Positions 1 through 64,000 of a DNA stretch of 64,000 nt are shown in pieces. Below the pieces are notes generated by a model that ran no database searches, was not told where the DNA came from, and worked only from the letters and a program-made list of their open reading frames with translations. The DNA is from Acetobacter persici JCM 25330 (GTDB lineage: Bacteria > Pseudomonadota > Alphaproteobacteria > Acetobacterales > Acetobacteraceae), in contig NZ_BAJW01000007.1 in assembly GCF_000613905.1 (NCBI RefSeq), positions 1-64,000 on the forward strand. Reading direction: 5' to 3'. The position numbers and the translations under genes were made by a program. Within the stretch, counting starts at the first letter, position 1; every line of letters starts with the position of its first letter.

Positions 1-2415
1 CCGCAAGAGCCGCGAGAAGCGCCTGCGCTTCCGCCGGGCCGCTCTGGCGGATGCGGTCGGTAATGGTCTGGAACAGGGGTGCGGTCTGCTCTGACGGACG
101 CCCGCCTGAAGAACACTGCTCTGAAGAATGCTGGGGTGAGCAGGCATAAACGGGGCCACCCGGAACGGGGTCCATCTGCCCGGAAAGACCCTGAGCACTG
201 TCTGGCTGTGGCGTGTCTGCCTGTGGCGCACAGGCCTGAAGAATTGTCTGGGCGAGAGTCTCGGCCTCGGGCGCGGTCTGGCCAAAAATATGCAGGCCAT
301 CACGGATTTGCAGATCTTTCACATCACACAGATACGCATCCAGACGGGCGAGGGCTTCGGCCTCATCCTCCTCACCGGGGCGGACACCACTTTCTGAAAG
401 CACGCCGGTCCGGGCAGCTTTTTCCAGAATCTCCTTACGGAGTAATGCACCACGGCGCGGGTCCAGCCATCGGCCTCGGCATATTCATCAATCAGCCGTT
501 CCAGCGCCTGCATTTCGGGCGAAAGGTCAACCTGCCGGACCGGGGGCGTCATGTGGCCTATGGTCACGGCCCCGAGCCGCCGTCTGGCGGTGGCGGCCTC
601 ACCCGGATTATTGACAATAAACGGGTAAATAACGGGCAAAGACCCCGTCAGCACCGCAGGCGCGCAGGCGGCGGAAAGGGCTGCGGCCTTGCCCGGCAAC
701 CATTCCAGCGTGCCATGCGTGCCAGATGCACCAGCGCATCCAGCCGCCGCACGCTGCGCAGCCACAGGTAAAACGCCACATAAGCGTGGCAGGGCGGGAT
801 ATCCGGGTCATGATACCGGGCTTTCCGGTCGGCCTGCCGCCCACGGTCCGGCTGCACGGCAAGCGTCAAATGCCCCAGTTCCAGCGCGCGCAGATGGAAC
901 GCGCCTTCCTGCACGCATGGGTCCTGCTCCGGCGCACCCCATGCCTGCGTGACGGACGCCATAAACCCGGCATCCAGCTCGGCCGCCAGCGCATGGTATG
1001 TGGGAAGGCTTATCAGCGGGCGGGGTGCCGTCTGGGCCAGCAGAGTTGTGAGGGTTTGTGCGTCTGGCAAAGGCGCTGGCCCGGTCTGATACCCCTCCGC
1101 CCGCAGCAGAGCGAGGATGGAGGCCAGACTGGCAAACCCGTCCAGCCCGACGGCATGGGCCACGTGCCCCGTCTCCCGCGCAAGCCCGGCCCCCGGATAG
1201 TCTGAGAGGATAATGCCAACCCGCTTCTGCTCCGGGGCCAGATGCCGCAGGCGTGCCCATGCCAGCGCCCGCGCCACGGTATGCCGGATACCGGGCAGAT
1301 AAGGCGTGCGGGCAGCAGGCAGGCCGGGCGGCGCATCCTGCCGGAAAGAAATGGGGAGTGTTGCGATGCTGCCATCCAGCTCTGGCAGCACGGCCTGCAT
1401 GGCGAGGTCCGACCGGGAGAGACCGCGCGGGCTGCGCGCCCATACCTCCTGCGTCGCCCCCGGCTGGAGCAGTTGCAGGATAGGGGCCCCGGCAACCGCT
1501 AGCGGAGAGTGCCCCTGCGGGGTTCTGGAAGAAAACAGGGTCGCGTTGAGGACACTATCTGGCTGAAAGTTTCTCAGCGCATCGGCAACGCCACTGGCAA
1601 CGGCAGGGTCTTTAAGAGATGTGACAAACAGCATCTCCACCCCGCAGCCCTGTGCGGCAAGGCATCCGCCAGCGCGTCCAGCGCGGCGATATCTCCCACC
1701 ATCAGATGGGCACGGTAGAAAATCAGTGTGGCCCGCAGCGTGCGGTTTGCTGGCAGAGGAAGAGAATCCTGACTGAGTGTTGCTGCATCTTCTGTTTTAA
1801 GATCTGTGCGTGCTGCGACTGTGCGATACACTCCCCACAGCGGCAGGGGTTCCGGCTGTGCGCCATCATCGCGTGTTGCCCGGCGAGGCTGGCCATCAGG
1901 CGCAGGGCATGCTCCATATTGTGAGCGCCGCCATACTGAAAAAACCCGTTCAGTCGCCTGCGTATTTCACCCGACACAGTGGAGAGTTCCGCCAGACGGC
2001 TATCATCCGACAGTGGGGCACCGGCACCCGGCTGGGGCCGGGCTTCTCCGGGGAGCAGAGCCAGCGGGATATGGTGCGCCCGGCACCATGCCGCGAGTTC
2101 CTCAGCGCCATAGCGCCAGTAATCCAGCCCGCCGAGCAGCCGCACCACCACACAACGGGCCTGCGCCAGTGTGGTCTCCAGATACAGATCGACCGACATG
2201 GGGTGCCGTAGCCGGGCAAGGCTGGTAACCTGAAGAGAGGGCAGCGTCTCTCCCTCTCCGCGCGGCCCGGCCTTCATCCGTGCCTGTGCGTGCAGCAGGC
2301 CGAGCAGGTCACTTTCCGTAAAGGACAGGACAACGAGTTCCGCCGGAGGCAGGCCGAGGTCTTCCGCCACATCCTGCTCATCCAGCGTCCGGCTGTCCCG
2401 CACAAGGAGGTGCAT
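1..2415 (-). CDS. cobN: Cobaltochelatase subunit CobN (C-terminus beyond window)
   Basis: Large ATP-dependent subunit that inserts Co2+ into hydrogenobyrinate a,c-diamide in aerobic cobalamin synthesis. About 805 residues are visible. The start MHLLVRDSRTLDEQD lies 16 bases after the cobW stop. Family hallmarks are AHLMVGDIAALDALADAL, VLPELDGSIATLPISF, YHDPDIPPCHAYVAFYLWLR, GTHGTLEWLPGK and FIVNNPGEAA. The frame breaks near 1870, 1661, 722 and 467. Each is repaired by adding one base (for example restoring a third G before CACGCATGG), so I treat the gene as intact. Near the window edge (about 75-220) a Ser/Gln/Pro-rich stretch interrupts the usual sequence. It is the third gene of the riboswitch-led operon; CobS and CobT are not in the window. 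Confidence 0.93.
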
Positions 2416-2431
2416 GGGGGCTGGCCGCTGC

Positions 2432-3491
2432 TTAACCGGCAGACGTTGCGGACGGATCTGCCGCCAGCGCTGCCGTAATCGCAGCCTGATCCAGCCCTTT
2501 CTGCCCGATGACCACAATACGACCGGTGCGGGCCTCCTGCGGGGTCAGAGGGCGGTCAAACTCATGCCGGAAGCGGGTGCCGACACCCTGCACCGCCAGC
2601 CGCATGGGCTTGCCCTGCACGCTGGCAAAGCCCTTCATGCGCAGGACGTAATACCGGGCCGCCACATCCTGCAACAGGGTCAGGAAGCGTTCCACGGAAA
2701 GCTGCTCCGGCACGGTGACGACGAAACTTTCAAAATCATCATGCTCATGCTCGCCATCTTCCGCATCATGGTGCGATGGACGGGACTGGAGATCGGCCTC
2801 GGCTTCCGCCCCCAGACCCAGCAGCACGGCGGGGTCCACCTTGCCATCCTGCGCGCGGATGATGCGCACTGGGCGCGGGCAGAGGGTTTTGATCTCTGCT
2901 TCCACCGCATCAAGCTGTGCGGCGTCCAGCAGGTCCGTCTTGTTCAGAACAATCAGATCCGCCGCGTTAAGCTGGTCTTCAAACACTTCCGCCAGAGGGT
3001 TGTCATGATCCAGTGAGGGATCGGCCTCGCGCTGTTTTGCCACGGCCTCCGGATCATCCGCAAAGCGGCCGGAGGCAACGGCGGGGGCATCCAGCACCGT
3101 GATGACGCCATCCACCGTCATGCGGCTGCGCACGGTGGGCCAGCCAAAGGCTTTAAGCAGCGGCTTGGGCAGGGCAAGGCCGGAGGTTTCAATCACCACA
3201 TGTTCCGGCGGGTCGACCCGGTCCAGCAGGGCTTCCATCGTGGGCAGGAAATCATCTGCCACGGTGCAGCACAGGCAGCCGTTGGTGAGTTCAACAATAT
3301 CATCCTCCGGCAGCCTTCCACGCCGCAGCCGCGCAGGATTTCTCCATCAATGCCCAGAGAGCCGAATTCATTGACCACAACGGCAATACGGTGGCCCTGC
3401 GCTTTTTGCAGGATATGGCGCAGGAGCGTGGTTTTCCCCGCCCCCAGAAAGCCGGTGATGATGGTGACGGGAACGCGGTGGATGCGGTCAT
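2432..3491 (-). CDS. cobW: CobW-type metallochaperone GTPase
   Basis: G3E-family P-loop GTPase of the COG0523 group, which delivers metal; genes next to cobN are taken to supply cobalt for B12. It shows Walker [10 protein letters not shown] near residue 15, the metal motif NGCLCC (family CxCC), the nucleotide-specificity motif NKTD, a His-rich stretch ([14 protein letters not shown]) before the C-terminal CobW_C domain, and the family end [11 protein letters not shown]. About 353 residues, normal length. The start overlaps the upstream stop as ATGA, implying translational coupling. Frame breaks near 3470 and 3313 are each repaired by one added base and restore continuous CobW sequence. Confidence 0.93.
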
Positions 3492-4370: not shown

Positions 4371-4452
4371 GCATAATACCGGTATTTTTCAAGCCGTAAG
4401 CCGGGCACTTTATGAGCAGACCTGTTCTGCCAGAGGGTTTGCTCAGTTCCCC

Positions 4453-6055
4453 TCATTGCCCCTTGGCAGGCGGATTCACCGGCTTGCTGTCACCCCGCAG
4501 GTTTTTGACCTGCTCCGGCGTGACGTGGTGATCTCCGGAGCCGAAGGTGGCGGTCACGTAGTTCACCAGTGCGGCAATTTCCGCATCGCTCAGGCGCTGC
4601 ACGTTGGACTGACCATCAAAGCCCGGCATAAAGGCATGTTCCTTGCCCGCCGTGCGATCCACCCCTTTCAGGATGGTCATGATCAGGTTGTCCGGACGGC
4701 CTGCGCCCACTGTGGAGTTGGCAAACAGGGAGGGCACATAATGGTCTTGCGTGCCAGCCCCGTCCCGCCCGTGGCAGGCAGCGCAGTTGGCATCATAGAT
4801 GTGCGGGCCATCCATTTCCGCCAGATCATCAATCCGCTGCGGGCCTTTGGTGCGGATATCCGGCTCGTTCACCGCCTTGCCAAATGCATCACGCGCGGTG
4901 TGGTCGGCCTCATCCTCCATCGGGGCAACCTTGAGGATAAAGGCAGCCAGTGCGTGCAGGTCCGCATCCGTCAGGTGGCTGGTGCTGTGCTCCACGGCTT
5001 CCGCCATGGGGCCTGCGGCCTGCGCACGGCCCGCCACATGCCCGGTGCGCAGATACGCCACCAGATCCTCCTCACTCCACGAACCGATGCCGCCGGTTTT
5101 GCTGGAGGTGATGTTGGGCGCGTACCATGCGCCAAGGGACGTCCCGGCCAGATAATGGTCCTGCTTTTCACTCAGCATGAAGTTACGCGGGGTGTGGCAG
5201 GTGCCGCAATGCTCCAGCGCGTTGGCCAGATAACGGCCCCGGCGGAGCGGATCATACGTGCTGGAATCCCCGGTTTCCGGCGTTTCCTTACTGGCGATGA
5301 AGTTCCACGCATCATGGCCGGACGGATGCTGGCCGGGAAGGACAGATTTGTCTCTTCCTGCGCTTCCGCCACCGGTTTGACCGCATGCATGAACCACGCA
5401 TACAGGGCCTTCACGTCCTGATCCGTCATGCCCGCGTAAGACACGTACGGCATGACCGGATACAGATAGGACCCATCCTTGCGCACGCCATGCCGCACGG
5501 CATTTTCAAAATCCGCTTCCGTATACCGGCCAATTCCGTGGTCGGGGTCGGGGGTGATGTTGGTGGCAACCACCTGACCCATCGGGGTGGCAATTTTCAG
5601 GCCACCCGCAAAAGGTTTCCCGCCCGGTTTGGTGTGACAGGCCACGCAGTCCGCTGCTGTCGCAAGGTAGGCACCCCGCGCCAGTTCAGCATTCCCAGTC
5701 TCCGGCTGGGCCGGCGCCCTGTTCCAGCCTGCGCTGAGGCGGCGGAACCCTGTGCCGGAGCGGGTACGGCTGTTGCGGGCTGGGCGTTCCCGGAAGGCGC
5801 GGATGCGCCACTGGCAGGGCGAGGAGCCGCGGCCTGCCCCGGCAGGAGCCGTTTTTCAGAGGTTGGCGTGTGGTCTGATGTTTTCGCATCAGATCCCGCA
5901 ACGGGCTTCCCCTCTTCCGCCACAGGCGCGGGCACTGTGGGCTGGGCGGCCGGTTTGTCTGCTGAGGTAGCGGCGGCCCGCGGTGCGAGCGCCACACCAC
6001 CAAGGGCTGTTCCGGCAATAAGAGCGGAACACAGGAGAGTTCTGAAATCAGGCAT
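4453..6055 (-). CDS. Tri-haem cytochrome c subunit of membrane-bound FAD dehydrogenase
   Basis: Electron-transfer and membrane-anchoring subunit that passes electrons from the flavoprotein to ubiquinone on the periplasmic side. There are three CxxCH haem sites: CVACH (about residue 137), CGTCH (about 283) and CAACH (about 424). A signal peptide (LLCSALIAGTALGGVALAP) is followed by about 100 residues rich in Ala, Pro and Ser before the first haem, which makes the protein (about 534 residues) longer than typical 440-480 residue relatives. The start ATG lies inside the last codons of the flavoprotein (8-base overlap). Frame breaks near 5718 and 5310 are each fixed by one base. Confidence 0.9.
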
Positions 6056-7683
6056 GAAGCAGTTCTTTTTTCAGCGTATCTGCAACACGCAGCGCCAGCG
6101 CTGCGACCGTCAGAGTGATGTTGCCCGTGCCCACGGTTGAGAAAACTGAGGAACTGGCAATAAAGAGGTTCTCATGGTCATGCGTCCGGCAATGGCCGTC
6201 CACCACGGAATCTTTCGGGTCCGTGCCCATGATGGTGCTGCCGGAGGGATGATCCTGCGGGAAGTAACCCGGTGTCCACTGTTCATCCGTGCCATGCATC
6301 AGGCCGATCAGCTCTTTGAACACCTTGCGGGTGTGGTCACAGCTTTTCACGGTATACTCAGGCAGTTTGTAATAAACATCCGGATGCGGGATGCCGAGAA
6401 TGTCCTTGTTGGTCTTGCTCAGCGTCAGGCGGTTGTCCGGGTCCGGCAGGGCCTCGTTATGGCTGAACAGACGCACGGTGTGAGAGGCCAGATAACGGAT
6501 CTGTTCTTCCAGATCTCGCCCGACATAACCTTTGGAAATGGCAAGCTGGGTGGCAAGGTCCACCTGATTGTCATCCACCATATGCACCAGATACGCGCCG
6601 CGCTCATTCCGCCAGTCGCCATCACGGAAATTGTCGATCACGTTGGTCTCCAGCGGACCACGGCCGGGCCAGAGGCTTTATCGCCACTGATAAACGTCAC
6701 CTGCACGCCGGTATGGTCCATCATGTTCCGGCCTACATGGCCTGAACTGTTGGCAACGCCATCCGGGCTCTGCTCATCAGCAGAGACCAGCAACAGTTTG
6801 GCGGTTTCAATACAATGCGCGGCAATCACAAAATATTTGCCGGTGACGCGGTGGGAGTTTTTATCCGGGTCATAATACTGCACGGCGGTCACGCGCTTGT
6901 TGGCGCTGTCCCGCTCGATTTTGTAGACCACGGCGTTGGGGATGAACTTCGCCCCGGCGGCCTCGGCATGGTATACGGAATAGCTGCCGTTATACATCGC
7001 CCCGATGGGGCAGATGGGCATGCAGTTATTATGGCCCTCGCACGTCGGGCGGCTGTCATACGGGCGGGTGTTCCGGGCCTGCGGCTCATGCACCACACGC
7101 CAGGGCGTTTTTTCACTGATCAGCTCGCGGAACTGCTGCGCGGCGTAGGAGATGGGCAGCGCATCCATCGGGTAAGGCTGTTTGCGCGGAGAGCCGAGGT
7201 CCTCCTTGGCCGGGTCCGGCCCGCAGACGCCCATCATCACTTCCGCCTGATAATAGAACGGCTCCAGATCCTCATACTTCAGGGCCCAGTCACGCCCCTG
7301 CCGTAGCGGGTTTTCAGCTCAAAGTCCGAGGGCAGGTAGCGCCATGCGCACCCGGCCCAGTGCCATGTCGTGCCGCCCATCATGCGCAGGTAAACCTGCT
7401 GGTAGGCTTCCGCATTGGGGCCGGACGTGTGCAGATAATCATTCGGCGTGATCTGGTTGGGCGGATGTCTGGCCCACGGCACCGCCGGAAAAGGCCCCTG
7501 ATAGGAGGGCTTGTTTTCCAGATTACGGAAATTTTCTACAAAATGCTGGCGGTCCACACGGGGGCCTGCTTCCAGCACAATGACGGAAATTCCGGCACGC
7601 GCGAGTTCATTGGCAATGGACGCTCCGGCAACACCGGACCCGACAATGACAACATCGGCGGAGAGAGTCTGTTCAGAAGGCAT
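6048..7683 (-). CDS. GMC flavoprotein, large subunit of sugar/polyol/sugar-acid dehydrogenase
   Basis: FAD-dependent catalytic subunit, about 545 residues. The N-terminal dinucleotide fold is VVIVGSGVAGASIANEL (residues 9-25). A GMC substrate-side region contains HPSGSTIMGTD, and the C-terminal FAD/active-site block is DHENLFIASSSVFSTVGTGN. With the S-L-C gene order and a small subunit of the FAD-sorbitol-dehydrogenase type, likely substrates are sorbitol, 2-keto-D-gluconate or gluconate; sequence reading alone cannot choose. Fructose dehydrogenase is less likely because its order is S-C-L. Frame breaks near 7296 (GGGG run) and 6665 each need one added base. Confidence 0.88.
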
Positions 7684-13090: not shown

Positions 13091-13449
13091 GAAAACGTCC
13101 AATTTCAGCAGAATGGGAACGGGCTGGGTCTATGAGGGCCGCATAGCCTGCACGGAATAATAATGGAGCGGAATAAAGTAAAGAAACGGCTTCATAGTTT
13201 CATATTTATTTCACAAACCAATTTTTATAGAAAAAATAAAATAAATTTCACACTTTGTCAGAATAAACACAGATCAGAAGAGCTTTGTGAAACTTATATT
13301 ACGAAAGGAGAATCATTCTTCTATCCAGAAATGAATTTTTGTAAGGGGATACCCATTCGAAATTCTTATGACTGAAGAGTGCACATCATCATGCCTGTAG
13401 ACTTCAGTCATCTGGTGCTGCTCAAAACATGTGTCGGAAAAATCTTCTT
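13091..13449. other. AT-rich spacer upstream of TonB receptor
   Basis: Distinctly AT-rich compared with its neighbours, with runs such as AAAAAATAAAATAAATTT. No credible gene. It must hold the promoters of the divergent PI-PLC and TonB receptor genes. Confidence 0.5.
13307..13321. promoter_or_regulatory. Candidate Fur-type box upstream of TonB receptor
   Basis: GGAGAATCATTCTTC matches the inverted repeat TGAGAATnATTCTCA with three end mismatches; the inner GAGAAT-C-ATTCT is exact. It lies 129 bases before the receptor start, a plausible place for iron repression. Confidence 0.4.
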
Positions 13450-15789
13450 ATGAAAAAGACGCTTTTCAGGTTTGCTCTGTGCTGTGGCATCGCCTTTCCG
13501 TGCGAGGTCTGGGCAGAAACAGACACTGCCATACCCGCAGAGCAGAAGCCCCGGCAGGCACCGCATAAGGCCAGCGCGCCGCGCGCGGCCAAAGCCACGA
13601 AAAAAACCAGAGACCGTGCGAATTCTGCTCTGGAATCCGTGGTGGTGACAGCCCAGCGCCGGGCTGAAAACAACCAGACTGTTCCGATCTCCATCCAGCA
13701 TATTGATGGCAAAACCCTTGCCAACGCAGGCTATACCGCCCTGACTGACCTGCAATATCTTGCACCGGGTGTGCAGTATGACCCCACACAGGGCGCTGCA
13801 TTTCAGATTCGCGGTGTTGGCAGTGAATCTTTCGATTTTTCCAATGCAAAATCCGTCAGCGTTGTGGTGGATGATGTGGTGATGGATGCCCAGCGCGCCA
13901 ACGGGATGATTGGCATGGTGGATATCAACAATGTTGATATCATGATGGGCCCGCAGCACGCTGTTTGGCATGAACTCCACATCTGGCGTGATTGCCGTCA
14001 CGACCGGTAAGCCGGTGCTGAACAAGTTTACAGCCCGGACCAGTGCGAGTTACGGCGAGCATAATGAGCGTATTCTGAATGCAACCGTGAATATTCCGGT
14101 TGGCAGCAAGGCCGCCTTCCGTATTTCCGGCTTTGATAACGCGCAGGATGGGTTTGGCCGTAACGTCGTGCTGAACAAACTGGTTGGCTCTACCAATGAA
14201 TATGGTGGCCGTGGCAAATTCTATGTTCAGGCCATGGATAATCTGGATATTACCTTGCAGGGCGATTATGCCCACCACTGGGACAGCAGCGTCCGCACGC
14301 CGGTGGGTGGCCAGAGTGCTGCTGTAACCTCCGCCCTCAATTCTCTGGGTGTTTATCCCAACTCAAAAAATGCGGATACGGCTGACCCTATCTATGGGAA
14401 TATCGTTTCAGAAGAATATGGCGCGGCCCTGAAAATCCATACAAAAATCGGGGAAAACGACCTCAACTTCATCAGCGCATGGCGTCAGTCGCTCTATAAC
14501 AACAACACGCCGGTTGACCTCGTGCCGCTGGATGTTTCTGCCTATTACCCTTACAATTTTGGGCATCTGACGACGCAGAAATTCAGTGATGAAATTCGCT
14601 TCTCCTCCCCCAAAGGGCATTTTCTGGAATGGCTGGCCGGTGGCTTCTTCAACCGGCTTGACGCACGCCAGACCCAGTATCAGTGGGGCACAGCAGGCGC
14701 ACCGCTTTATGTGGATGGCGTTCCGGCCGCGAATTTGTACAATAACTCCGGCGCTGTGGGGTATAGCGGCAATACCTCCCTCTTCCAGTCCCGCAATGAA
14801 TCTCTGGCGGCATTTGGACAGTTGAAGTTCAATATTTCCCGCCATTTTGATATTGCCATCAGCGGGCGTTACACCCACGATAAAAATTCTCAGGGGCTGA
14901 GCTTTATCAATACGGACGCGCAGGCGGTCACGGGGTATAATCCCACTTTTACGCCTACCCATAACGCGCCTGTTTACCCGTGGGGCCAGATGACCGGCCA
15001 GAACTTCTCAGGCCGGATTTCTCCTGAATATCACTTCAACCCCAACGTCATGGCCTATTTTACCTTCTCCACCGGCTATAAGCCGCAGGGATTGCGTTTG
15101 TCGGTAATAATTACGACCCTTACCATAAAGAGACCGTGAAATCCTATGAAGCCGGGATGAAGTCTGAATGGATGCACCACAGGCTGCGCCTGAATGTGGA
15201 TGCCTTCCGCGAAGACTTTACCGACTTTCAGGCGACTGTGCTGACGCCTGTTCCGGCAGGGAATGGCACAACTATTCTGACAAGTGCGATCGGCAATGCG
15301 GGCGGGCTGGTCAGTCAGGGTTTTGAAGGCAATGTGGCCTATAAGCCTATTCCTGATCTAACATTATCCGGATCTGTTTCCTTTACGGATGCGCATTTTA
15401 CGGATTACGTTGCCAGCACAAAAGCTAACTATACCAATACCCGTCTGACCAATGCACCGGTCTGGTCCGCCAATGCTTTTATTGACTACCAGCATGACCT
15501 GACCCCGCATCTTGGTGTGCAGGCGCATCTTGACTACGCCTATCGCGGCACGACATGGACCGTAACCGGCCAGCCGGATTATTCCAAAGTTCCGGCTTAC
15601 AGTCTTGTCAATCTGCGCGTCAGCCTGCTGCCTCTCAACAAGCGGCTTCAGGTCGGGCTGTATGTGCGCAATATGTTCAACCAGTATTTCTCAACCGGCT
15701 ACCAGCTTTACGGGACGGCTGGGTATCTGCACTACACCTCACCGGATGCGCGCCGCACAATCGGCGGGTTTATTAACTTCAGCTACTAA
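13450..15789 (+). CDS. TonB-dependent outer-membrane receptor
   Basis: About 780 residues. Signal peptide MKKTLFRFALCCGIAFPCEV, a Lys/Ala-rich linker, TonB box-like ESVVVTAQR, the plug domain (QYLAPGVQYDPTQGAAFQIRG, VDIMMGPQHALFGMNST) and a beta-barrel with many alternating aromatic strands ending FINFSY. It imports an iron chelate or other large ligand; the fold resembles pesticin/siderophore receptors. I chose the second ATG because it begins a classic signal peptide. Frame breaks occur near 13961 (two bases missing or one extra) and 15089 (one G missing). Confidence 0.9.
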
Positions 15790-15816
15790 CCGGGAACAGC
15801 CAACCAGAGTGCAGGG

Positions 15817-16992
15817 TCAGCTTGCATGACCCTGCGGGCCAAGGCTCAGAACATGCGCCAGATGGTCCCGTTCAATTTCGAACGGGACATCCCAGCTTTC
15901 GCTGTCTTCGCAGAGTTTTCCGCGGATTTCGTAATAATCCAGTCCGCGCAGACCCGCGATAAAATAGAAAAACGTATCCGGCATGGTGCCGGGGGCCAGA
16001 TTGATCACTCTGGTCCCTTTGCGGCAGAACATGATGTTGGTCATGGCCGCCCCCATCACCCCCACAACACACTCCGCATTTTTAAAAAGCTTGATCTGTT
16101 CAAGGAGCGTCAGGTCAGCCGGGTCCAGACACAGAAAACCCTGCTCTTGCAGGAAGTCCATCAGACTGTCTTCATCCTTGATGCTTCTGGCCCGGTTTTT
16201 ACGGGTGAGATAGAGCTTGCGCACCTGCGCGCCGGGCACGCAGTCCACCATGGCGTCCGTGCGGGAAAAGGCCAGCGGAGACATATAGACGCCGTGATTG
16301 CTCAACCCGTCTACAAGCACCAGTTCTTTAAAAAAGGACACATCCTGCGGGCTCATGGGGTGATAGAGCGGCACAAAGCCTGTGCTCAGCGCCACACTAT
16401 CCCGCAGGACACGGGCAAAATTGCCACCCACCTGCGGCACGACCAGAGAACAGAGCGGTAAATGCTCTTCCGCCAGCCAGAGTTTTGGCAGCAGTTCCAC
16501 CATCCAGTGCCCGTAATTCTGCTCTCCGCGCTTGCGCAGCAGGAGGGAGGACGGGGTAACATGCTGCACGCTCTGCGTCTGCCCGGCCTGTAGAATCTGC
16601 GCAAGCCCTTGTGCGCACTCTTCCGGCGTATGCTGGGTGATACTCTCCTGCACCAGCTTTTTATCCTGCGTAAACACCAGACCTTCCTGCGTGACATACA
16701 CATCAAACAGTTTTGTCACCCGCACGCGGCCTGCGGGGAATGCGCAGGTAAACCAGCCGGGCCGCATGGCGTCCAGAATATGCGCGGGAACATAATCGGG
16801 GTTCAGCACACGCGGGGGGGCAAGCTGAAAGGCGGGAGACATGACTTCCGCCACGGACACCCTGTGCAGGCTCTGTATGTCTACCAGATCCACGCGTTCT
16901 GCCTCCTCACTGTTCCGGCACGCCAACTGTGATGCGGGTTTCAGGCTGTTTGCGCAACAGGCGAGCCTGATGTGCCAGCGCAATCTGCCCAC
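15817..16992 (-). CDS. Glycosyltransferase family 61 protein
   Basis: Up to 391 residues. GT61 (DUF563) motifs are present: NYGHWMVELLPKLWLAEEH, YLTRKNRARSIKDED and VVGVMGAAMTNIMFC followed by INLAP. Bacterial members add sugars to capsule or exopolysaccharide. The annotated start is a GTG; the first good ATG (MSPAFQLAPP) lies about 50 residues in, so the N-terminus is uncertain. There is no signal peptide, so it probably works on the cytoplasmic face. It is convergent with the TonB receptor. Confidence 0.85.
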   Translation of the reverse strand: MGRLRWHIRLACCANSLKPASQLACRNSEEAERVDLVDIQSLHRVSVAEVMSPAFQLAPPRVLNPDYVPAHILDAMRPGWFTCAFPAGRVRVTKLFDVYVTQEGLVFTQDKKLVQESITQHTPEECAQGLAQILQAGQTQSVQHVTPSSLLLRKRGEQNYGHWMVELLPKLWLAEEHLPLCSLVVPQVGGNFARVLRDSVALSTGFVPLYHPMSPQDVSFFKELVLVDGLSNHGVYMSPLAFSRTDAMVDCVPGAQVRKLYLTRKNRARSIKDEDSLMDFLQEQGFLCLDPADLTLLEQIKLFKNAECVVGVMGAAMTNIMFCRKGTRVINLAPGTMPDTFFYFIAGLRGLDYYEIRGKLCEDSESWDVPFEIERDHLAHVLSLGPQGHAS

Positions 16993-17079
16993 GCGCCCTG
17001 TTTGCAGAACTGTCTCTTGCCAAGCCAGCCCGTACCGTCACATCTTAAGGAAATATTAACATCTGGCATGGAGGGGCGT

Positions 17080-17528
17080 ATGATCCCGTCTTCCTTTCTG
17101 GCCAGCCGCCTTGGTTTTTCTCAGGTGCCGCTTGAAAAACCCGCGATGGCCATTCCCCACGCGCTTTTTGTTTTTCTGATTGAAAGCTACCTGCGGAGTC
17201 AGCCTTTTCATGAAGAGGCATATCTCCGCAGCAATCCGGACGTGGCGGAAGCCTCCGGGCCGGGCATATCCCGTCCGCCAAGGAACATTACGTAACACAG
17301 GGCTACTGGGAAGAACGGGATGGCGCCTGCCCGCCTTTTTGTGAGGACTGGTATCTGAGCCAGAATCCGGACGTTGCCGTTGCCGTCATGCAGGGTGAAT
17401 GTCCGTCTGGCGCGGCGCATTACACCCTGTATGGCCGCCGGGAGGGCCGGTGCCCCTGCCCGGAACTCGCGCCGCTTTATGCTGCATGGCAGGCTGTTTC
17501 CGCCCCTGCGCCTCAGCGCGCCAACTGA
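17080..17528 (+). CDS. Small protein with two tandem NPDVA repeats
   Basis: About 149 residues. The start has GGAGGGG seven bases upstream. It carries two copies of a unit of about 45 residues: EAYLRSNPDVAEA...AKEHYVTQGYWEERDG and DWYLSQNPDVAVA...GAAHYTLYGRREGR. This Y-L-x-x-N-P-D-V-A ... H-Y-x-x-x-G-x-x-E-G-R unit occurs in bacterial glycosyltransferase-associated and surface proteins; its function is not established. One frame break near 17252 (missing C) separates the repeats. It lies between a GT61 protein and an MFS transporter. Confidence 0.7.
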
Positions 17529-17580: not shown

Positions 17581-18742
17581 ATGAAAACCGATCGCACCTT
17601 TCTGCCCAGACTGACTCTGGCGCTTTTCCTCTCTTACCTCAGCGTGGCTTTGTCTCTGACCGCCGTGCCGGTGTATGTCATGTCCTGGCCGGGCTTTACC
17701 AACGTGCTGGCCGGTCTGGCGGTGGGTATTCCGTTTCTGTCCACCATTTTCACCCGCAATTATGCCGGGCAGATTGCCGATGCCTCCGGCGGGCACCGCT
17801 GCATGCGGCGCGGGCTGGTTTTCTATGCGCTGGCCTGCGGGCTGTGCCTGCTATCCACCCTGCCCGCTCTGCCTGCCATCGGGCGATATGGTGTGCTGAT
17901 AGCCGGCCGCCTGCTGCTGGGGCTTGGTGAGAGCCTGTGCATTGTGGGCATGATGGCTGGGGCATTGCGCTGGCCGGGCAGCCACAGGCAGGCCGGGTTA
18001 TGGCGTGGACCGGGGCCGCCATGTATGGCGCGTTTGCCGTGGGTGGCCCGGTGGGGCTGATTGTGTATCAGCATTTCAGTTTTGCTGTGCTGATGGGCCT
18101 CAGCGCGGCCCTCCCTCTGGCGGGCCTGCTGCTGATCAGCACCTTGCCGCCAGCCCCCCTGCACACCGGCCACCGGGAACCGTTCTGGGCCATTCTGAAC
18201 AAAATCCGTGGGCCGGGCATCGTCGTCGCCTTGCAGGGCGTGGGGTTTGCAGCCCTTGGCGCGTTTCTCTCCCTGCGGTTTTTGCAGGCCGGATGGTCTT
18301 ATGCCGGATGGGGGCTGACCTGCTTTGGCGCGGCCTTTGTAGGCATGCGGATGCTGTGCGGGCATCTGCCGGACAGGGTTGGCGGGCTGAAAGTGGCCCT
18401 GCCCTCTCTGGTGCTGGAAGCACTCGGGCTGGCGCTGATCTGGGGCGCGCCGTCTCCGGAAATTGCACTCGCCGGAGCCCTGCTGACAGGCGCAGGCTGC
18501 TCCATGGTTTATCCCTCCCTCGGCGTGGAGGTGGTGCGACTGGTGCCCGCCCCCATGCGCAGCACGGCCCTTGGCGGATATTCCGCGTTTCAGGATCTGG
18601 CTTATGCCGCAACCGGGCCACTGGCCGGGTTTCTGGCGGACCGCTCCGGCTATGCGAGGTGTTTTTACTGGGCAGCCTGTGCGCGCTGCTGGGGGCCGCA
18701 CTTGTGTGCCTGCTGATTGCGCTCAGGCCCCAGAACAGGTGA
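17581..18742 (+). CDS. MFS transporter (YfcJ/YhhS-like)
   Basis: About 387 residues and 12 predicted membrane helices. It shows the MFS loop NYAGQIADASGGHR between helices 2 and 3, RLLLGLGESLCIVGMMAWGI, and the second-half counterpart CGHLPDRVGG. The sequence is closest to the YhhS/YfcJ group of putative small-molecule exporters; the substrate is unknown. Frame breaks near 17956 and 18659 are each repaired by one base; the second restores the tail CALLGAALVCLLIALRPQNR. It is convergent with the hydrolase gene, 16 bases apart. Confidence 0.82.
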
Positions 18743-23337: not shown

Positions 23338-23909
23338 ATGGACCGCATGACCCCGACAGCGTTTTCCCCCGCCACAACAGCCCAGCTTGACCGCGCCGAT
23401 GCCCTCTGCACCCGGCAGGGCGCGCGCATGACGCAGCAGCGCCGGGAAATTCTTGGCCTGATTCTGGACGCACAGACGCCGGTAGGCGCGTATGACCTTC
23501 TGGAAAAAATCAAAACGCCGGACCGCCGCCCTGCCCCGCCGACGGTCTATCGCGCGCTGGATTTTCTGCTGGACCACGGGCTGATCCACCGGATTGAGCG
23601 GCTGTCCGCCTTTGTGCCCTGCACGCACCTGCTGCGTGACCCCCACACGCATAACCCCGACCACTGCCACGACCATGATCACGAGACATGCTGCATACGG
23701 CGCAGTTTCTGATCTGCAAGTCCTGCAAGGGTGTGACAGAAATTGCGGACTCCAGCGTGCTGAACACGCTGCGCGGCATCTGCCGGGAGCAGAATTTTGT
23801 CATGCAGGGGGCCTCTATTGAAGTGGTGGGCCTGTGTGCGGAGTGCGCCGCCAAAGCGCGCCCGACCCGCAAGAGCGCGCAGAAACAGGCCTCGCCCTCT
23901 TCTCCATGA
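23338..23909 (+). CDS. zur: Zinc uptake regulator (Fur family)
   Basis: About 190 residues. N-terminal Fur winged helix (MTQQRREILGLIL, APPTVYRALDFLLDHGLIHRI), a His-rich stretch (HTHNPDHCHDHDHE), then the structural zinc site cysteines in LICKSCKG and LCAEC. This Cys arrangement and the divergent znuACB identify Zur rather than Fur. One frame break near 23687 (GAGACATG should be GAGACCATG) is fixed by one base. The stop overlaps the next gene as ATGA. Confidence 0.9.
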
Positions 23910-37621: not shown

Positions 37622-37891
37622 ACCCTATGCACCCGGACCATGGGGCCTCTGGCCACGCCTGTTGATTGCCTGCTCCGCCGGAAAACCGTCTGCGCCCCCT
37701 AAAACATCAGGAACAGTGTTAAGGTTACTATTATGTCATTTTAATGAAAACGGCTCTTCTCAGCCTTCTGTCACATCTTCCGGCGGCTGAGCTGCCGCCT
37801 ACACTCAAACGTGAGTCCGCATCTGACAGCCTTGCGCGTTACGCATAGGACCATCCCACTCTGGGAATTAATCCTGTCTAAAGAGACGATC

Positions 37892-44071: not shown

Positions 44072-45018
44072 TTACCAGGAACTCTGTGAGCCACCACCGC
44101 CGGAATCCCCACCACCGCCGCTAAAGCCGCCGCCGTTTCCGCCCCCGCCAGAGGAGCCCCCACCGCCTCCACGCCCGCCGCCACGACTTTGCAGAATGGC
44201 GGACAGGATATTGAGGCCGAGATTCAGGAAAAAGCTCCATTGAGCACTCCGCTCGGCCTGCACGTCCGGCGGCACATAGCCCCCCGGATACAGGGTGCGG
44301 CGGCGGCGCGCACGGCGGATCAGCCAGACAGGCAGGAGGACAAACAGCAGGCCCAGCACCACCAGACCCGTCAGGGCCTCCAGCGCATCGGTCCGGGAAT
44401 CCGGCTGCGAACTGGCGGCCGCAGTCCCGCCGATATCGGCGGGGTCGGCATGCGCCAGCACATCCGCCAGAGCGTCTACAATACCATTGACAGCCTGAGC
44501 ATAATGGCCCGCCTGAAGATCGGGTTTGGCGGCTTGCAGAATGTCATGCGTTTGCAGGTCAGTCAGCACACCTTCCAGCCCGTACCCGACCTCAATGCGG
44601 GACTGACGGTCCGGGATATCCAGCACCACCAGCAGGCCGTTATCCACGCCCTTTTTGCCAATGCCGGTCTTGTGGAAGGCCTCATTGGCATACAGGCTGA
44701 TATCATCCACATGGCCGGGCAGAGAGACCAGAATCTGCGGATTTCCGGGAAGCGTCTGGGAAAGCTGGAACAGTTTGTGGGACAGGGCCGCGTTCTCATC
44801 CGCAGAGAGAACGCTTTGCGGGTCCGTCACCCACTGGCGCAGCAGCACGCCATTGCTGGCAGGAGCTCCGCACGCGCATCGGCAGAGACAAACGGGGCAG
44901 GCCCTGCCCCGAACAGGACCAGCCCCAGAAGGGCCATCAGCCCGAACAGACGGACACGAAGGGCGCGCCGCAGCCCGCCCCCTTCTGGCCAGCGGAACAC
45001 GGGATGATCCTGCCGCAT
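44072..45018 (-). CDS. TPM-domain membrane protein (YgcG-like)
   Basis: About 315 residues. Signal peptide or first helix (GLMALLGLVLFGAGPAPFVS), TPM phosphatase-like domain (VTDPQSVLSADENAALSHKL, GKKGVDNGLLVVLDIPDRQ, RIEVGYGLEGVLTD), a membrane helix (GLVVLGLLFVLLPVWLI), and a C-terminal tail of Gly/Ser repeats ending SQSSW. One frame break near 44858 (CTGCCAGC should have CCC). It follows LemA directly, the usual LemA-TPM pair; the role is thought to be envelope-related but is not settled. Confidence 0.82.
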
Positions 45019-45044
45019 GCTGTTATGCCTCAACGCGCTGGTTT

Positions 45045-45638
45045 TCAGTGTTTGGAGAAATCAACAACCGGCGGGGTCTGGGCTTCCGGAGTAGCCTGAT
45101 AATAGACGCGCGCATGGTAGCCCATGATGCCCGCCACCAGATTACCGGGGAAGTGCATGACCGTCTGGTTATAAGAAAGAATAGCCTGCTGCAAACGCTG
45201 CCGCGCCACCGTAATGCGGTTCTGGGAGCCTTCAAGCTGCACCATCAGGCGCGTGAAGTCCTGATTGGCCTGCAACTGCGGGGACTGTTCCACAACGGCG
45301 TTAATCGCGCTGATTTCCTTGGCGTTGCGGGCCTGGGCTTCCAGAATTTTCTGCTGGAGGGTGGCGTTGTCCACCGTGCGCGGGTCAATCCGGCTCAGCG
45401 GCGTTTCACCGGAACGGGCGGCGGCGTAGTCTGTCAGGGTATCATGCTCATGCGTGGCATAGCCCTTTACGGTGTTGACCAGATTGGGGATCAGGTCAGA
45501 CTGGCGCTGCACCTCGTTCTGCAACTGGCCTGTCTGCTCCAGCACATTCTGGTCCGCCGCCATGAAGCGGTTATAGCTGGACCCGAAAATGGCCAGAAGG
45601 CCAACAATCAGAATCGCAGGGATGAGAAGCTTCTTCAT
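45045..45638 (-). CDS. lemA: LemA family protein
   Basis: 197 residues. One N-terminal membrane helix (LLIPAILIVGLLAIFGSSYN) is followed by the LemA helical bundle: QNEVQRQSDLIPNLVNTVKG, ISAINAVVEQSPQLQANQDF, LMVQLEGSQNRITVARQRL and YNQTVMHFPGNLVAGI. Topology puts the bundle in the periplasm. It is co-transcribed with the TPM-domain gene 26 bases downstream. Confidence 0.9.
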   Translation of the reverse strand: MKKLLIPAILIVGLLAIFGSSYNRFMAADQNVLEQTGQLQNEVQRQSDLIPNLVNTVKGYATHEHDTLTDYAAARSGETPLSRIDPRTVDNATLQQKILEAQARNAKEISAINAVVEQSPQLQANQDFTRLMVQLEGSQNRITVARQRLQQAILSYNQTVMHFPGNLVAGIMGYHARVYYQATPEAQTPPVVDFSKH

Positions 45639-46900: not shown

Positions 46901-47748
46901 ATGCTGCCAGTTCTTCTCTTCCCGCAATTTGACCCGGTGCTGGTGCATCTGGGGCCGCTGGCCATCCGGTGGTATGCGCTGTCCTACATTGTGGGCATTG
47001 TGCTGGGGGTTTCCCTTCTGCGCAGGCTGGTGCCGCTTGCCCCCCGCGCCGCCACGACGGAACAGGCGGATGATTTTCTAGGCTGGGTGACCCTTGGCGT
47101 GCTGCTGGGCGGACGGCTGGGCTATGTGCTGTTTTATCAGCCGGGCTATTACCTGACGCATCCGCTCAGTATCCTGCAGGTCTGGAAAGGCGGCATGTCC
47201 TTCCATGGCGGCGCGCTGGGCGTGATTGTGGCCATGGCGCTGTTTGCGTGGCGCAACAAGATCAATTTTCTGGCCTTTGCGGACCGCGTGACAGTGGCTG
47301 TGCCGGTCGGGCTGGGGCTGGGGCGTATTGCCAACTTTATCAACGGGGAACTGTGGGGGCGGGAAGCCCCCGCCAGCCTGCCCTGGGCGATGATCTTCCC
47401 CAATGCCGGGCCCATTCCCCGCCACCCGTCCGAACTGTATGAAGCACTGACGGAAGGCTGCTGCTCTTCAGTGTCATGTTTCTTGTCTCCCGCAGGCAGA
47501 GCGTGCGGGAACGTCCGGGCTTTCTGGCCGGGCTGTTTCTGGCGGGCTATGCCTGTGCGCGCAGCTTTTGCGAATTTTTCCGGGAACCGGATGCATTTCT
47601 GGGCTTCCTGCCCGGCGGGGTGACCATGGGGCAGGTATTGTGCGTCCCCATGCTGGCCGCCGGTGTGGCGCTGATGCTGCATGCCCGCCGCAGCCCGGTT
47701 TATACCGGCCTGCCGGACCCGGCCCCCGCGTCAGACGCCGGGGCCTGA
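46901..47748 (+). CDS. lgt: Prolipoprotein diacylglyceryl transferase
   Basis: About 282 residues with seven membrane helices. It transfers diacylglyceryl from phosphatidylglycerol to the lipobox cysteine. It has the Lgt signature GLGLGRIANFINGELWGRE, MSFHGGALGV (conserved His), RHPSELYEALTEG and the C-terminal SFCEFFREPD. ACAGGA precedes the ATG. One frame break near 47457 (GGCTGCTG lacks one base). It heads the lgt - midA-like - pgeF - lipoprotein cluster, which makes functional sense for a lipoprotein gene at its end. Confidence 0.95.
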
Positions 47749-50660: not shown

Positions 50661-52215
50661 TTACTGCTTTAGGCGGTCCTTCCGCACATAAACGTCAGGA
50701 ATACCGGGCAGCAGCGTATACTGTGTCTGCAAAAGCTGGACAACACAGCCCATGAAGTTTTCCGGCTTCCAGATCCCCCATACGGTCCAGTTATCAAAAT
50801 AAATGACTGGCGGAGGATTTTTAGGAAGATCAACACAAATATCCCGCTCATACCCCGCGACAGGACTTTTTGCATAATCCGCCTCCCACGGCAGATAGGC
50901 ATGATATTTTTTGATGGGAAGGCGGTCGGCCTCAATATAGACGTTTGGATTATAGGGAATAACCAGAATACGTTCATCAGGATGCGCGTATTCACGGATT
51001 TTCTGATCAATCAGGTTATCGCTTTTCTTAAAGGGATGAAAACCTGCCTGTTTGCGTTGTACATAATCCTCCCCAAAGGGCGTGGAAACAGCATGCAGGC
51101 CGACCAGTAGAGAACATGCGACCAGAAGAGCGGAAACTGTACTTAATTTGTATCTGGATTCATTCAGCCAATAGGGCACCATCTGGGCGACAAACCCTAA
51201 TGCCGCGACCACAAACGTACCATTCTGAAATGTTGTACCGCCCCGCGCATCCAGAGACAAAAGACCCGCTATAGCAATAAGCCCTGCGACTTTATAACGG
51301 GTCCTGGCGAGAAGAATCAGGCTTCCGAGCAGCAGGGAGCAGACCGCGAGTGTCTGGACCAGATTAGCCGGGAGAAGCGAAGGCCGAAGGCTTTTGAAAA
51401 CAGCGACAAACCCGAAGAATATAATGCGCATAATAAAATTGATTGCTAATAAAATGGTAAACGATAAAGCCTTTGAGATCTGCATAGAGCAGCATCCACA
51501 AAAGAAAAATCCCCAGCGCGCCTGCTGCGCCCAGAAGGCTGTAGAAAGCGTCTTTTCTATTCAGCTTTGCTGTCCGGCGACATAATACAGCCAGAAGAGA
51601 TAAGGTAAAAAGCGCAGTAACCGGGAGAAAAGAATAAGCCACAAAGGGCAAAAGGACCAGAGCCGCACCGCCCCCGACAGCCGCCCATTTTTGCACCGGT
51701 TTATCCAGAAGAGCAGGAACAACAAGCAAAGAGCAGGCAAGAACCGTCAGATTTCCGCCAAAAATCCAATACCCGTTCATATTGAGAGCCTGAACAATCC
51801 AGACCGGACCTAACAGACCAAGAAAGAGCGCCGGAGAAAGCAAACGCTCCCGCCATGAGGCCGCGCTGCTCACACAATACAGCCCGGTTGCAGAAATCAG
51901 GGTGATAAAGAGGGCATTCAGGCGAAACAGAAAGGCGTAGTGATATCCAACAACCTTTCCCAACAGCCATGTTGCGAAAAAGACCAGAGGACCATGGGCG
52001 TCGATATAGTCGCGGTAGAGAATATCCCCGTTTTCAATCGCCCAGCCGCCAATATCATGTCCGGATTCATCCCCAAAGGCATGATATCCAAATCCGTAAA
52101 ATACCTGTACCAGAAATATCAAAAAAGAAACAAGCGCAAAGAGTAGGATGTGATTTCTTCCAGATATCAGTGACTGTAAATCTCTGGCCCAGACATAACG
52201 CCCTTTATCACCCAT
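50661..52215 (-). CDS. Polytopic mannosyltransferase-like membrane protein
   Basis: About 517 residues with ten or more membrane helices (for example LLFALVSFLIFLVQVFYGF, LLSPALFLGLLGPVWIVQAL). A first periplasmic loop after helix 1 has Asp/Glu residues (YHAFGDESGHDIGGW, YRDYIDAHGP), as in GT-C glycosyltransferases that use lipid-linked sugars. The soluble C-terminus includes RILVIPYNPNVYIEADRLP. The substrate is unknown. One frame break near 51418: one extra base or two missing. Codon use is more AT-rich than in the neighbours, which may indicate transfer. Confidence 0.7.
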
Positions 52216-56416: not shown

Positions 56417-57803
56417 TTACATGCTGATGACGTAAAACAGCGTCGCTGCAATAGTGATGGTAATGGGCAGCGTGAAGATCCATGCCAGAGCAATTTTGGT
56501 CAGCATCTTCGGGTTGATCCCGCTGCCAGAGCCCAGCATGGTCCCGGCAATACCGGCCGTGATGATGTGGGTGGTAGAGACGGGCAGGCCGGTATAACCC
56601 GCTGTGGCAATCAGGCCCGCGCCAACCAGTTCGGCTGAAGCGCCTGTGCAGGGGTGAGGTGCGTGTTCCCAATCTTCTCACCCAGCGTATGCACAATCCG
56701 CTTATAGCCGATCATGGTGCCAAGGCCGAGGCACAGAGCGCTCAGCAGACGCACCCACCAGGGGGCATATTCCACGGTCGGGCGCAGGGCACCGCTGATG
56801 TCTTTGGCGCTTTTCTTCTCGCGGCGGAAGCCTCCGCATTGGACGCAACAGACTTCAGACCTGCCAGAACTTCATAGATATCGGCGCGCAACTGAGAGGC
56901 CACAACCTTGGTGGGGTCCGTCGCCTGCAGGCGCTCGACAGAAGCCAGTGCTTCATCCCGCAGGCCGTCATGGTCATATTTTTGCAGCAGGGGGGCAGCG
57001 ATAACCGCCTGCGGGGCAATCTGCGGAATATGGGAGCCAGCATTCGGGCTGAGAGCAAATGTCGCCGGCAGGATGCCGATAATGGTCAGCATGATCAGGC
57101 CGATACTTTTCTGACCATCGTTGCTGCCGTGCGAGAAGCTGACGCCTGTGCAGGTGAGGATCAGCAGACCACGCACCCAGCCATGCGGGGGTTTTTCACC
57201 CTGCGGCGGCTGATACAGTTCCGGGTCCTTCACCACATGCTTCAGGATAAAATACAGGCCACCGGCCCCGATCAACCCCAGAATGGGGGAAATGGCCAGT
57301 GCGCGCAGCACCTTCCAGATCTGGGACCAGTCAACACTGTTGCCTAACCCGCGCGTATGCAGGAACGCATCCCCAATCGCCACGCCAATCAGCGCACCAA
57401 TAACGCAGTGGGAGCTGGAGTTGGGGATACCGAACCACCAGGTAAACAGGTTCCATGCCAGAGCCGTGCCGAACAGTGCGATCAGCATCGGGACGGCAGG
57501 GTCTCCGTTGGGGGGAGACAGCACATCGGCTGGCAGCAGTTCCACCAGCCCGTATGCCACGCTGATGCCCCCGGCCAGCACGCCGATGAAGTTCATCAGG
57601 CCGGACCAGATCACAGCCACGCGCGGCTTGAGGGAGTGGGTGTAAATAACCGTTGCTACGGCGTTGGCCGTATCATGAAAACCGTTAACAAATTCAAAAA
57701 CGCAGACCAGCAGAAAGCATGTGGTCAGCGCCAGAATGGAAAGCACCGAATACGGAGCAAAATGGAGCATGGGAACCAGTACCTGTGTTGCACTGAGTCG
57801 CAT
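56417..57803 (-). CDS. Pit-family inorganic phosphate transporter
   Basis: About 462 residues. The duplicated PiT signature is visible: FVNGFHDTANAVATVIYT in the first half and STTHIITAGIAGTMLGSG in the second, with GIPNSSSHCVIGALIGVA and SFSHGSNDGQKSIGLI. Metal-phosphate symport of low affinity. Frame breaks near 56823 and 56641 are each fixed by one base and recover the C-terminal third. A charged central loop (QKYDHDGLRDEALASVERLQ) separates the halves. It follows the CorA gene by 93 bases. Confidence 0.88.
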
Positions 57804-60670: not shown

Positions 60671-60712
60671 AACCCCTACTGATGCGTCTGAGCCTGAAAA
60701 GCCCGTGCGGCG

Positions 60713-61309: not shown

Positions 61310-61906
61310 ACCCGACCTCCGGAAAAATTCTTACAGAACTCAGACGCAGCGTCTGCCCGAGGCCTGACGGACCGGGACGTGCCGCAACTACTGATTTCTA
61401 GACTGTAAACCATCTCTATATCGTAAACGTCCCGGCCTGTGCAGCATTTCCTGACCATGGCGGGGCTGCTCTGCCGGACGCAGGGTCGGCCGGTGTTGCG
61501 CGCCACTTCGTACGTGGTGCTGCGCAGCCCTTTCCGCCACACCTCACGCGCAAGTGATGCCGCTTGTTACAACCGCGGGGCGTCAGACTTTCCTGCCCTG
61601 AAGCGGGGCGCAAAGGCTGCTCCGGCCAGTTTCAGCCCATCCCGCAGGTCCTGTTTTGCCAGCGGGAATAATCTTAAAAATGAGATTACCTGCCCCCGCA
61701 GGCAGCCCCCGCCTGCCCTGCTGCGTTGGGAAAGCAGAGGGTGGTCCTGCGTCTTAAAAGAAGCAGAAAAGTCTCACACCTGCTCTCTTGCCCAATAACG
61801 CCGGACCGTGTGAATGTGCATACCCCTGACGTCCCGCCGGGCTCTTCCGGTGGTGGGGTCTTACCGGGCCAGAACAAAAAACGTCCATTCTGAAGGATAG
61901 GTTAGC
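61310..61906. other. 597-base spacer upstream of transketolase
   Basis: No believable gene on either strand. Two structured spots: GCGGG-aa-TAATCT...AGATTA...CCCGC at 61662-61699, and a GAC...GTC stem with CCC-GCCGG/CCGGTGG-GGG at 61828-61860, 46 bases before the tkt start. It must also hold divergent promoters for the ankyrin gene and tkt. A structured RNA is possible. Confidence 0.45.
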
Positions 61907-64000
61907 ATGCGTGCCTCTTTTCCCACCCCTCTTCGCGCACCGGCCGGTCAGGAAGCCGGGGGGACGGCCAACCTCGATAACCTGTGCATCAACACCATCC
62001 GCACGCTTTCCATGGATGGCGTTCAGAAAGCCAATTCCGGCCACCCCGGCACCGCCATGGCGCTGGCGCCTGTGGCGTACACCCTGTGGCAGGACGTTCT
62101 GAATTACGACCCGGCAGACCCGCTCTGGCCCAACCGGGACCGCTTTGTTCTGTCCATCGGCCATGCCTCCATGCTGATCTATTCCCTGATCTATCTGGCA
62201 GGTGTGCGGCAGGTGAAGAACGGGAAGGTCACGAATGAACCCTCCCTGACCCTTGCCGACCTTGAGCAGTTCCGTCAGCTTGAGTCCAAAACCCCCGGCC
62301 ACCCGGAATACCGCCACACGACCGGCGTTGAGACGACCACCGGCCCGCTCGGGCAGGGCTGTGGCAACTCCGTTGGCATGGCCATGGCGGAAAAATGGCT
62401 GGCCGCGCGCTTCAACAAGCCGGGCTTTGAGCTATTCAACCACCATGTGTACACGCTGTGCGGCGATGGTGACATGATGGAAGGCATCTCCAGCGAGGCC
62501 GCCTCCACCGCAGGCCACCTCAAGCTGGGCAATCTGGTATGGATGTATGACGCCAACCGCATTTCCATTGAAGGCTCGACCGATATCGCGCTGACGGAAG
62601 ACGTCGCAGCCCGCTTTGCCGCCTATGGCTGGCAGGTGCTGGAACTGAAGGACGCGAACGATACCGCGACCCTGAAAGACCTGCTGGCGCAGGCCAAGGC
62701 CGAGACCGAACGCCCCACCTTTATTCTGGTCCATTCCGTGATTGCGTGGGGTGCGCCGCACAAGGCGGGCACCGCCTCCGCCCACGGTGAGCCGCTGGGT
62801 GCGGAAGAAATCCGTGAAACCAAGAAAGCCTATGGCTGGCCGGAAGACCGCAGCTTCTATGTGCCGGACGGAGTGCAGGCCCACATGCAGGACGGTCTGG
62901 GCGCACGCGGCGCCAAGGCCCGTGCCTCGTGGGAGGCCCTGCTGGCTGACTACCGCACCGCGCACCCGGAACTGGCTGCCGAACTGGACGCCATTCTCAA
63001 CGGTACCCTGCCGGAAGGCTGGGACGCGCAGATCCCGGTGTATGAGGCCAGCGCAAAAGGCACCGCCTCCCGCGCCAGCTCTGGTGAGGTGCTGAATGCT
63101 GTGGCAGGCCGCCTGCCCTGGCTGCTAGGTGGCTCGGCTGACCTTGCCCCCTCCACCAAGACCCTGCTGAAGGGCGAGCAAAGCTTCCAGCCCGCCGCAT
63201 GGGGTGGCTCCTACGCAGGCCGGAACTTCCATTTTGGCGTGCGCGAACATGCCATGGGCGCCATTGTCAACGGCATGGCGCTGTATGGTCTGCGCCCCTA
63301 CTGTGCAGGGTTCCTGATCTTCTCGGATTACATGAAGGCCCCCATCCGGCTTTCTGCCTGATGAACCTGCCGGTCACCTACATCTTCACGCATGATTCCA
63401 TCGGCGTGGGGGAAGACGGGCCCACGCATCAGCCGATCGAGCAGCTTGTGCAGCTCCGCGCCACACCGGGCATGACGACCTTCCGCCCCGGTGATGCGAA
63501 TGAAGTGGCCGAAGTCTGGCGCTACCTGATTGCCAAACAGGATGGCCCGGTGGCGCTGGCCCTCAGCCGGCAGGACCTGCCAACACTGGACCGCAGCCGC
63601 TTTGCCCCCGCCTCCGGCGTGGCAAAGGGTGGCTACATTCTGGCCGACAGCACGGAAACCCCGAAGGTGATCCTGATTGCCTCCGGCAGTGAACTGGGTC
63701 TGGCGGTGTCCGCCTATGAGGCCCTGAGCAAGGACGGCATCCCCGCCCGCGTGGTGTCCCTGCCGAGCTGGGAAGTGTTTGAAGCGCAGCCACAATCTTA
63801 CCGCGATACGGTGCTACCGCCGTCCATTACAGGCCGCGTGACCATTGAAGCAGCCTCCCCCATCGGCTGGGATCGCTATGCCGGTCCGACGGGTGAGATT
63901 ATTGCCATGCGTGGCTTCGGGGCGTCTGCTCCGGCCGGGCAACTGGCGAAGAAATTCGGCTTTACTCCGGACGCCGTGCTGGAAGCAGCGCGCCGTCAGG
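61907..64000 (+). CDS. tkt: Transketolase (C-terminus beyond window)
   Basis: About 698 residues are visible. TPP enzyme exchanging two-carbon units in the pentose phosphate pathway, which is central in acetic acid bacteria lacking complete glycolysis. Motifs: NSGHPGTAMALAP, GPLGQGCGNSVGMAMAEKW, TPP-binding CGDGDMMEGISSEA, FGVREHAMGAIVNGMALYG (catalytic Glu), and THDSIGVGEDGPTHQPIEQL in the pyrimidine domain. One frame break near 63358 (GCCTGATG should be GCCCTGATG), followed at once by correct sequence. The upstream ribosome site GAAGGATAGG fits the start. Confidence 0.95.

Follow-up and report, generated by a model that had tools for sequence, protein, structure and literature searches.

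The stretch of DNA examined here (the window) comprises positions 1-64000 of a contig of 73837 bases (C230) in the draft genome of Acetobacter persici JCM 25330, and its subject is the series of frame breaks that interrupt many of its genes. The first-pass annotation, made from the raw sequence, had announced about 34 breaks in 22 genes and proposed to verify them by alignment with close relatives. This alignment was performed with the proteins of syntenic Acetobacter genomes, the indels were counted at the listed places and all 34 breaks were recovered (34/34). The draft assembly amounts to 3699133 bases in 236 contigs, with sizes such as 506 bases (C1), 2152 bases (C60) and 119499 bases (C236, the largest seen), and its completeness is 91.45, to be compared with 99-100% in most other genomes of the genus among the matches listed. 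The assignment to Acetobacter is consistent with the 2229-base open reading frame found at 9672-11900, which shares 87% DNA identity with A. cerevisiae LMG 1625 and 84% with A. orleanensis LMG 1583. Moreover, the gene order is common to the window and to a single contig of A. cerevisiae LMG 1625 (C57) along almost the full window.

The 22 broken genes are distributed from one end of the window to the other. The cobN gene, encoding a cobaltochelatase subunit (196..2415, minus strand), extends past the lower limit of the alignment and displays four -1 changes near 465, 725, 1663 and 1872. It is followed by cobW (2432..3491, minus strand), with a -1 change at 3309 and a net change of -4 near 3470-3482, just past the start codon. 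An ordinary Cobalamin riboswitch (4113-4371, minus strand, 77 bits) is located upstream of these same-strand cobW-cobN genes. A cytochrome c protein (4453..6055, minus strand) carries a -1 change at 5309 and, in a divergent stretch at about 5719, another change that is -1 in frame. The next gene encodes an oxidoreductase with weak matches to choline dehydrogenase (GMC-like) models (6048..7683, minus strand), and its two -1 changes, at 6676 and 7299, are seen with all six of the six references. A phosphoinositide phospholipase C-like protein (PF16670; 11916..13090, minus strand) is interrupted by a -1 change at 12550, and a TonB-dependent receptor (13399..15789, plus strand) by a -2 change at 13957 and a -1 change at 15086. 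An unnamed protein lacking any NCBIfam or Pfam match (16899..17528, plus strand; -1 at 17254) precedes an MFS transporter (17581..18742, plus strand; -1 at 17953 and 18654). Further along are found a Zur-like zinc uptake regulator scoring below the NCBIfam cut-off (23347..23909, plus strand; -1 at 23692), an unnamed protein of 193 residues (23900..24474, plus strand; -1 at 24299) and an L-asparaginase II family protein (24485..25516, plus strand; -1 at 25058 and 25135).

The second half of this inventory begins with an unnamed protein (26032..26751, minus strand) showing a -1 change at 26540 and a +1 change at 26739, near its N terminus. The Cys-tRNA(Pro) deacylase YbaK (28417..28922, plus strand) is broken by a -1 change at 28711, the GMP synthase guaA (32005..33605, minus strand) by a -1 change at 33188, a lytic transglycosylase with an SLT domain (36237..37609, minus strand) by a -1 change at 37090 and a transporter of the lactate permease family (37861..39489, plus strand) by a -1 change at 39137. 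In a TPM-domain protein (44072..45115, minus strand), the -1 change maps near 44880 rather than at 44858, where it had been listed; a frame change is present nonetheless at all 34 listed places. The prolipoprotein diacylglyceryl transferase lgt (46901..47748, plus strand; -1 at 47459) lies beside a SAM-dependent (S-adenosylmethionine) methyltransferase family protein (PF02636; 47762..48842, plus strand; -1 at 48188 and 48799). The series is completed by an unnamed protein (51003..52110, minus strand; -2 at 51417), a PitA-like inorganic phosphate transporter (56417..57803, minus strand; -1 at 56646 and 56819) and the transketolase tkt (61907..64000, plus strand; -1 at 63356), the last residues of which lie beyond the window. 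No in-frame stop was encountered in the aligned part of these 22 genes.

These calls were obtained by predicting the genes of the A. cerevisiae contig from their excess of third-codon-position mismatches, which yielded 53 candidates, and by comparing each A. cerevisiae protein with the window DNA in a dynamic-programming protein-to-DNA alignment that allows a change of frame at a cost. Unfiltered, the procedure returned 45 frame changes in 27 of the 53 genes (29 of -1, 4 of -2 and 12 of +1), the +1 calls coming nearly all from the vicinity of starts placed too far upstream or from small open reading frames of doubtful status. A first filter, which discarded genes with in-frame stops and any event fewer than 45 residues from the N terminus, left 31 changes (29 of -1 and 2 of -2), all of them on the earlier list. 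Most of the 14 changes removed in this way correspond to over-extended starts or doubtful small frames, and one is the listed +1 at 26732, which lies close to the N terminus and is seen with both A. cerevisiae and A. orleanensis. The break at 24300 appears as -1 against the A. cerevisiae protein, added by hand, and against A. orleanensis as well. The break at 3470, where the first seven codons past a conserved start are four bases short overall, is the weakest supported of the 34. When six references were consulted, every covering reference agreed at 32 of the 34 places, the exceptions being 3470, flagged by one of six, and 5718, flagged by five of six; eleven places, 24300 included, had a single covering reference. 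A DNA-only count was rejected in favor of this protein-level test: its 142 non-triplet gaps in the 53 genes are mostly paired alignment noise or unconserved ends.

In the final tally, 31 of the 34 changes amount to -1 modulo 3, with two of -2 (13957 and 51417) and one of +1 (26739), as announced for the three places said to be +1 or -2. The accompanying claim of 31 one-base losses stands for the frame arithmetic and for 29 individual events; at 3470 (net -4) and 5718 (net +17 bases relative to A. cerevisiae, -1 in frame), the sequence is divergent and the frame change results instead from a larger net difference in length. Totals for the window differ from one comparison to another because the filters differ: 31 after the first filter, 32 in the comparison of loci, where two events beyond the window were added and 17254 was left out, and 30 under a stricter filter (a minimum of 0.75 identity and 100 residues). 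Apart from the list, an additional -1 change is observed at 8938 against both A. malorum references, in a small protein of 132 residues with an identity of about 0.8.

The breaks are by no means confined to the window. Among the 108 genes kept at six sampled loci outside it, 35 contain a total of 41 shifts (35 of -1, 5 of -2 and 1 of +1), and shifts are present in all eight contig groups tested. The genes broken there include rpoA, rpoB, rpoC, rplD, rplF and leuS, together with ileS, which contains three shifts. The rpoB gene, for instance, is found in three pieces whose starts are in differing frames (C222:12108-12755, 13019-14008 and 13999-16227). It is a single full-length match in 23 of 25 other genomes of the genus; in the remaining two, it is spread across two contigs in A. 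cerevisiae LMG 1625 and split into two pieces in another Acetobacter assembly (G005, completeness 92). In the latter, the two pieces are in different frames (G005:C116:46628-50748), and this assembly is perhaps a second error-prone draft. Two further -1 breaks are observed on the contig of the window just past its end, at 68707 and 68889. A cell in which RNA polymerase and similarly indispensable genes were truly broken could not live, and therefore at least the breaks in rpoA, rpoB, rpoC, rplD, rplF, ileS and leuS must be absent from the living strain. The breaks of the window are of the same kind.

The relatives provide a direct control. With the filters applied to the window, five of them displayed no shift at all, whereas the window displayed 30 (45 of 51 genes kept, 13766 residues). 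The genes kept in the relatives were 23/29, 12/12, 14/14, 12/14 and 12/15, with 7781, 4483, 4881, 4345 and 4283 testable residues respectively; they do not amount to five independent samples, because the control stretches overlap in gene content and contain largely the same genes. Similarly, A. orleanensis proteins revealed no shift on A. cerevisiae DNA (24 genes kept) and 11 on the window. One of these 11, a +2 near 23190 flagged by no other reference apart from A. farinalis, may be spurious.

The distribution of the breaks over genes was analyzed in eight contig groups, in which 232 of 250 genes were retained, the other 18 being dropped by the identity and length thresholds of the stricter filter. 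These genes contain 104 shifts, located in 82 of them, at 0.48 per kb: 91 of -1, 11 of -2 and 2 of +1, that is, 102 losses and two gains. Genes with 0, 1, 2, 3 and 4 or more breaks number 150, 63, 17, 1 and 1, for a length-based Poisson expectation of 154.0, 57.9, 15.4, 3.6 and 1.0. Such a chance-like spread by gene length gives no sign of important genes being spared. Protein identity is 0.936 upstream of the first break, 0.935 downstream and 0.933 in unbroken genes, and the share of mismatches falling at third codon positions is 0.810, 0.807 and 0.805 in the same order. Since both measures are the same before and after the breaks and in unbroken genes, constraint on these proteins has not been relaxed.

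The base context of the losses was examined for the 84 one-base losses that could be cleanly placed (9 of the 104 events were not cleanly placeable), with the run lengths of the relative standing in for those of the strain. The base removed is G or C in 69 of the 84, and 60 of the 84 fall in runs of two or three, which bears out the first-pass annotation in its remark that the losses usually lie in or beside a short G/C run. For lengths of 1 to 6, the losses per 1000 runs are 0.15, 0.96, 6.47, 2.56, 6.99 and 0 in G/C runs and 0.15, 0.46, 0.34, 1.22, 0 and 0 in A/T runs. At length three the contrast is 19-fold (32/4948 for G/C versus 1/2902 for A/T, p 6e-6), and no significant rise is found past this length, G/C runs of four or more giving 5/1507 versus 32/4948 (p 0.18). 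The most affected context of G/C three-runs is A-GGG-C, with 11/637 losses compared with 34/5701 for all contexts; this post hoc excess hints at a context-dependent base-calling error. A fixed error repeated in the eight-letter context of two -2 losses was considered too and ruled out, only 2 of its 16 instances in kept genes showing the loss.

On the basis of these comparisons, the breaks can be attributed, with a probability of about 0.98, to errors of sequencing and assembly rather than to mutations of the living strain. The draft consensus would omit one base, rarely two, at a rate of about 1 in 2000 coding bases, and most omissions would fall in G/C runs of two or three. Each omission would shift the frame in the sequence file only and leave the true gene intact. 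It is because the real gene would be intact that family sequence resumes at once past each break. Four marks of an artefact are observed: indispensable single-copy genes are broken, the relatives are clean, the breaks are spread regardless of function and no decay follows them. The description of the assembly as error-prone is thereby upheld, with breaks on every other testable contig. There is nothing biologically new in the breaks. Granted this artefactual origin, analysis of the error pattern indicates that the source was probably flow-based semiconductor sequencing of the Ion Torrent Personal Genome Machine (PGM) kind.

Several observations weigh against this interpretation. Two of them concern the platform: in the part of Bragg et al. 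(2013; PMC3623719) considered here, insertions outnumber deletions in PGM raw reads and homopolymers account for only 29% of all high-frequency indels, and the consulted portion of a Listeria study by Ion Torrent (PMC12046094), in which deletions are in the majority, gives a mean affected run length of 5.5 with adenine most affected, unlike this draft. Three others concern the artefact itself. Not every essential gene is broken, valS being a single open frame of 917 residues, yet chance allows for this. Breaks are more frequent in the window than elsewhere (30/13766 versus 74/58675 residues, or 0.73 versus 0.42 per kb; p 0.017 unadjusted), although no significant difference emerges across the eight contig groups (p 0.23); the higher frequency may reflect local read depth, or else the non-random choice of a window rich in breaks. 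Lastly, the 23S family search intended as a structural-RNA control gave no match in the draft, in A. cerevisiae or in A. orleanensis, and ribosomal RNA is therefore unusable as a control.

The same artefact could have come from another platform, either uncorrected long reads (Nanopore or PacBio continuous long reads, CLR) or 454, since one-base losses in the consensus are a known weakness of each of these technologies. Such an origin is conceivable but rather unlikely: an assembly of 236 contigs, many of them short, does not resemble a long-read assembly, and losses rising with run length, as expected of 454 and Nanopore, are not observed here beyond runs of three. In favor of 454, it is named beside Ion Torrent in the relevant portion of PMC7604302. 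Much less credible is the proposal that the strain recently lost many genes through frameshift mutation. Even if, at 32 of 34 places, none of the covering references shares the shift, and if several affected genes, such as the TonB receptor and the transporters, are dispensable in principle, real pseudogenes would not be expected to include rpoA, rpoB, rpoC, rplD, rplF, ileS and leuS. The mixture of insertions, deletions, stops and decay anticipated for real pseudogenes is not seen either: 102 of the 104 shifts are losses, the 22 window genes contain no in-frame stop in their aligned part, no relaxation follows the breaks and their chance-like spread over genes reveals no sparing. It is equally improbable that a few breaks are real, for example in the TonB-dependent receptor, or, far less likely still, that the cell tolerates pervasive frameshifts, including those in its RNA polymerase genes, through an unknown mechanism that restores the frame during transcription or translation. 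Finally, a hypermutator accumulating frameshifts in runs can be dismissed as the least plausible possibility: the losses are indeed concentrated in runs, but slippage without mismatch repair is expected in both directions and to rise with run length, whereas losses outnumber gains 102 to 2, runs of three are the most reliably affected with no higher rate at four or more (5/1507 versus 32/4948 for G/C, p 0.18), and such a strain could not break its RNA polymerase genes.

If the breaks are errors of sequencing and assembly, the value of this result is that of a data warning. Of the genes tested, roughly one in three (82/232) would appear broken in this assembly, and claims of gene loss, pseudogenes, core-genome content or split genes drawn from it would therefore be wrong. 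The low completeness of the draft (91.45) may be due in part to the same cause. The artefact had been recognized from the raw sequence alone, and the subsequent check agreed with it at 34 of 34 places.

This draft can be compared with three published situations. Within the genus, the draft of Acetobacter malorum CECT 7742 (PMC4919417), obtained by Ion Torrent PGM, likewise consists of hundreds of contigs. It does not agree with the present draft in contig number, size or G+C: 331 contigs, 4.04 Mb and 56.78% G+C, compared here with 236 contigs, 3.70 Mb and 58.8% G+C (218579 bases sampled); moreover, the window shares only 85% DNA identity with two A. malorum genomes. A second likeness is found in the genomes that RefSeq excludes for 'many frameshifted proteins', in which one-base errors inflate the number of false pseudogenes, and more than 50% of which are attributed to Ion Torrent/Proton in the consulted section of PMC7604302. 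The third comparison is with the PGM errors described by Bragg et al. (PMC3623719), as far as the part of that paper at hand goes. The many insertions in its raw reads have no equivalent in this draft, and the strand asymmetry of its high-frequency indels would be invisible in an assembly. The strand-asymmetric class of these indels nevertheless consists mainly of lost C and G, with 82% of its cases located in runs of two to three, a close fit to the single-base losses, chiefly of G or C and chiefly in runs of that length, that break the genes of this assembly.

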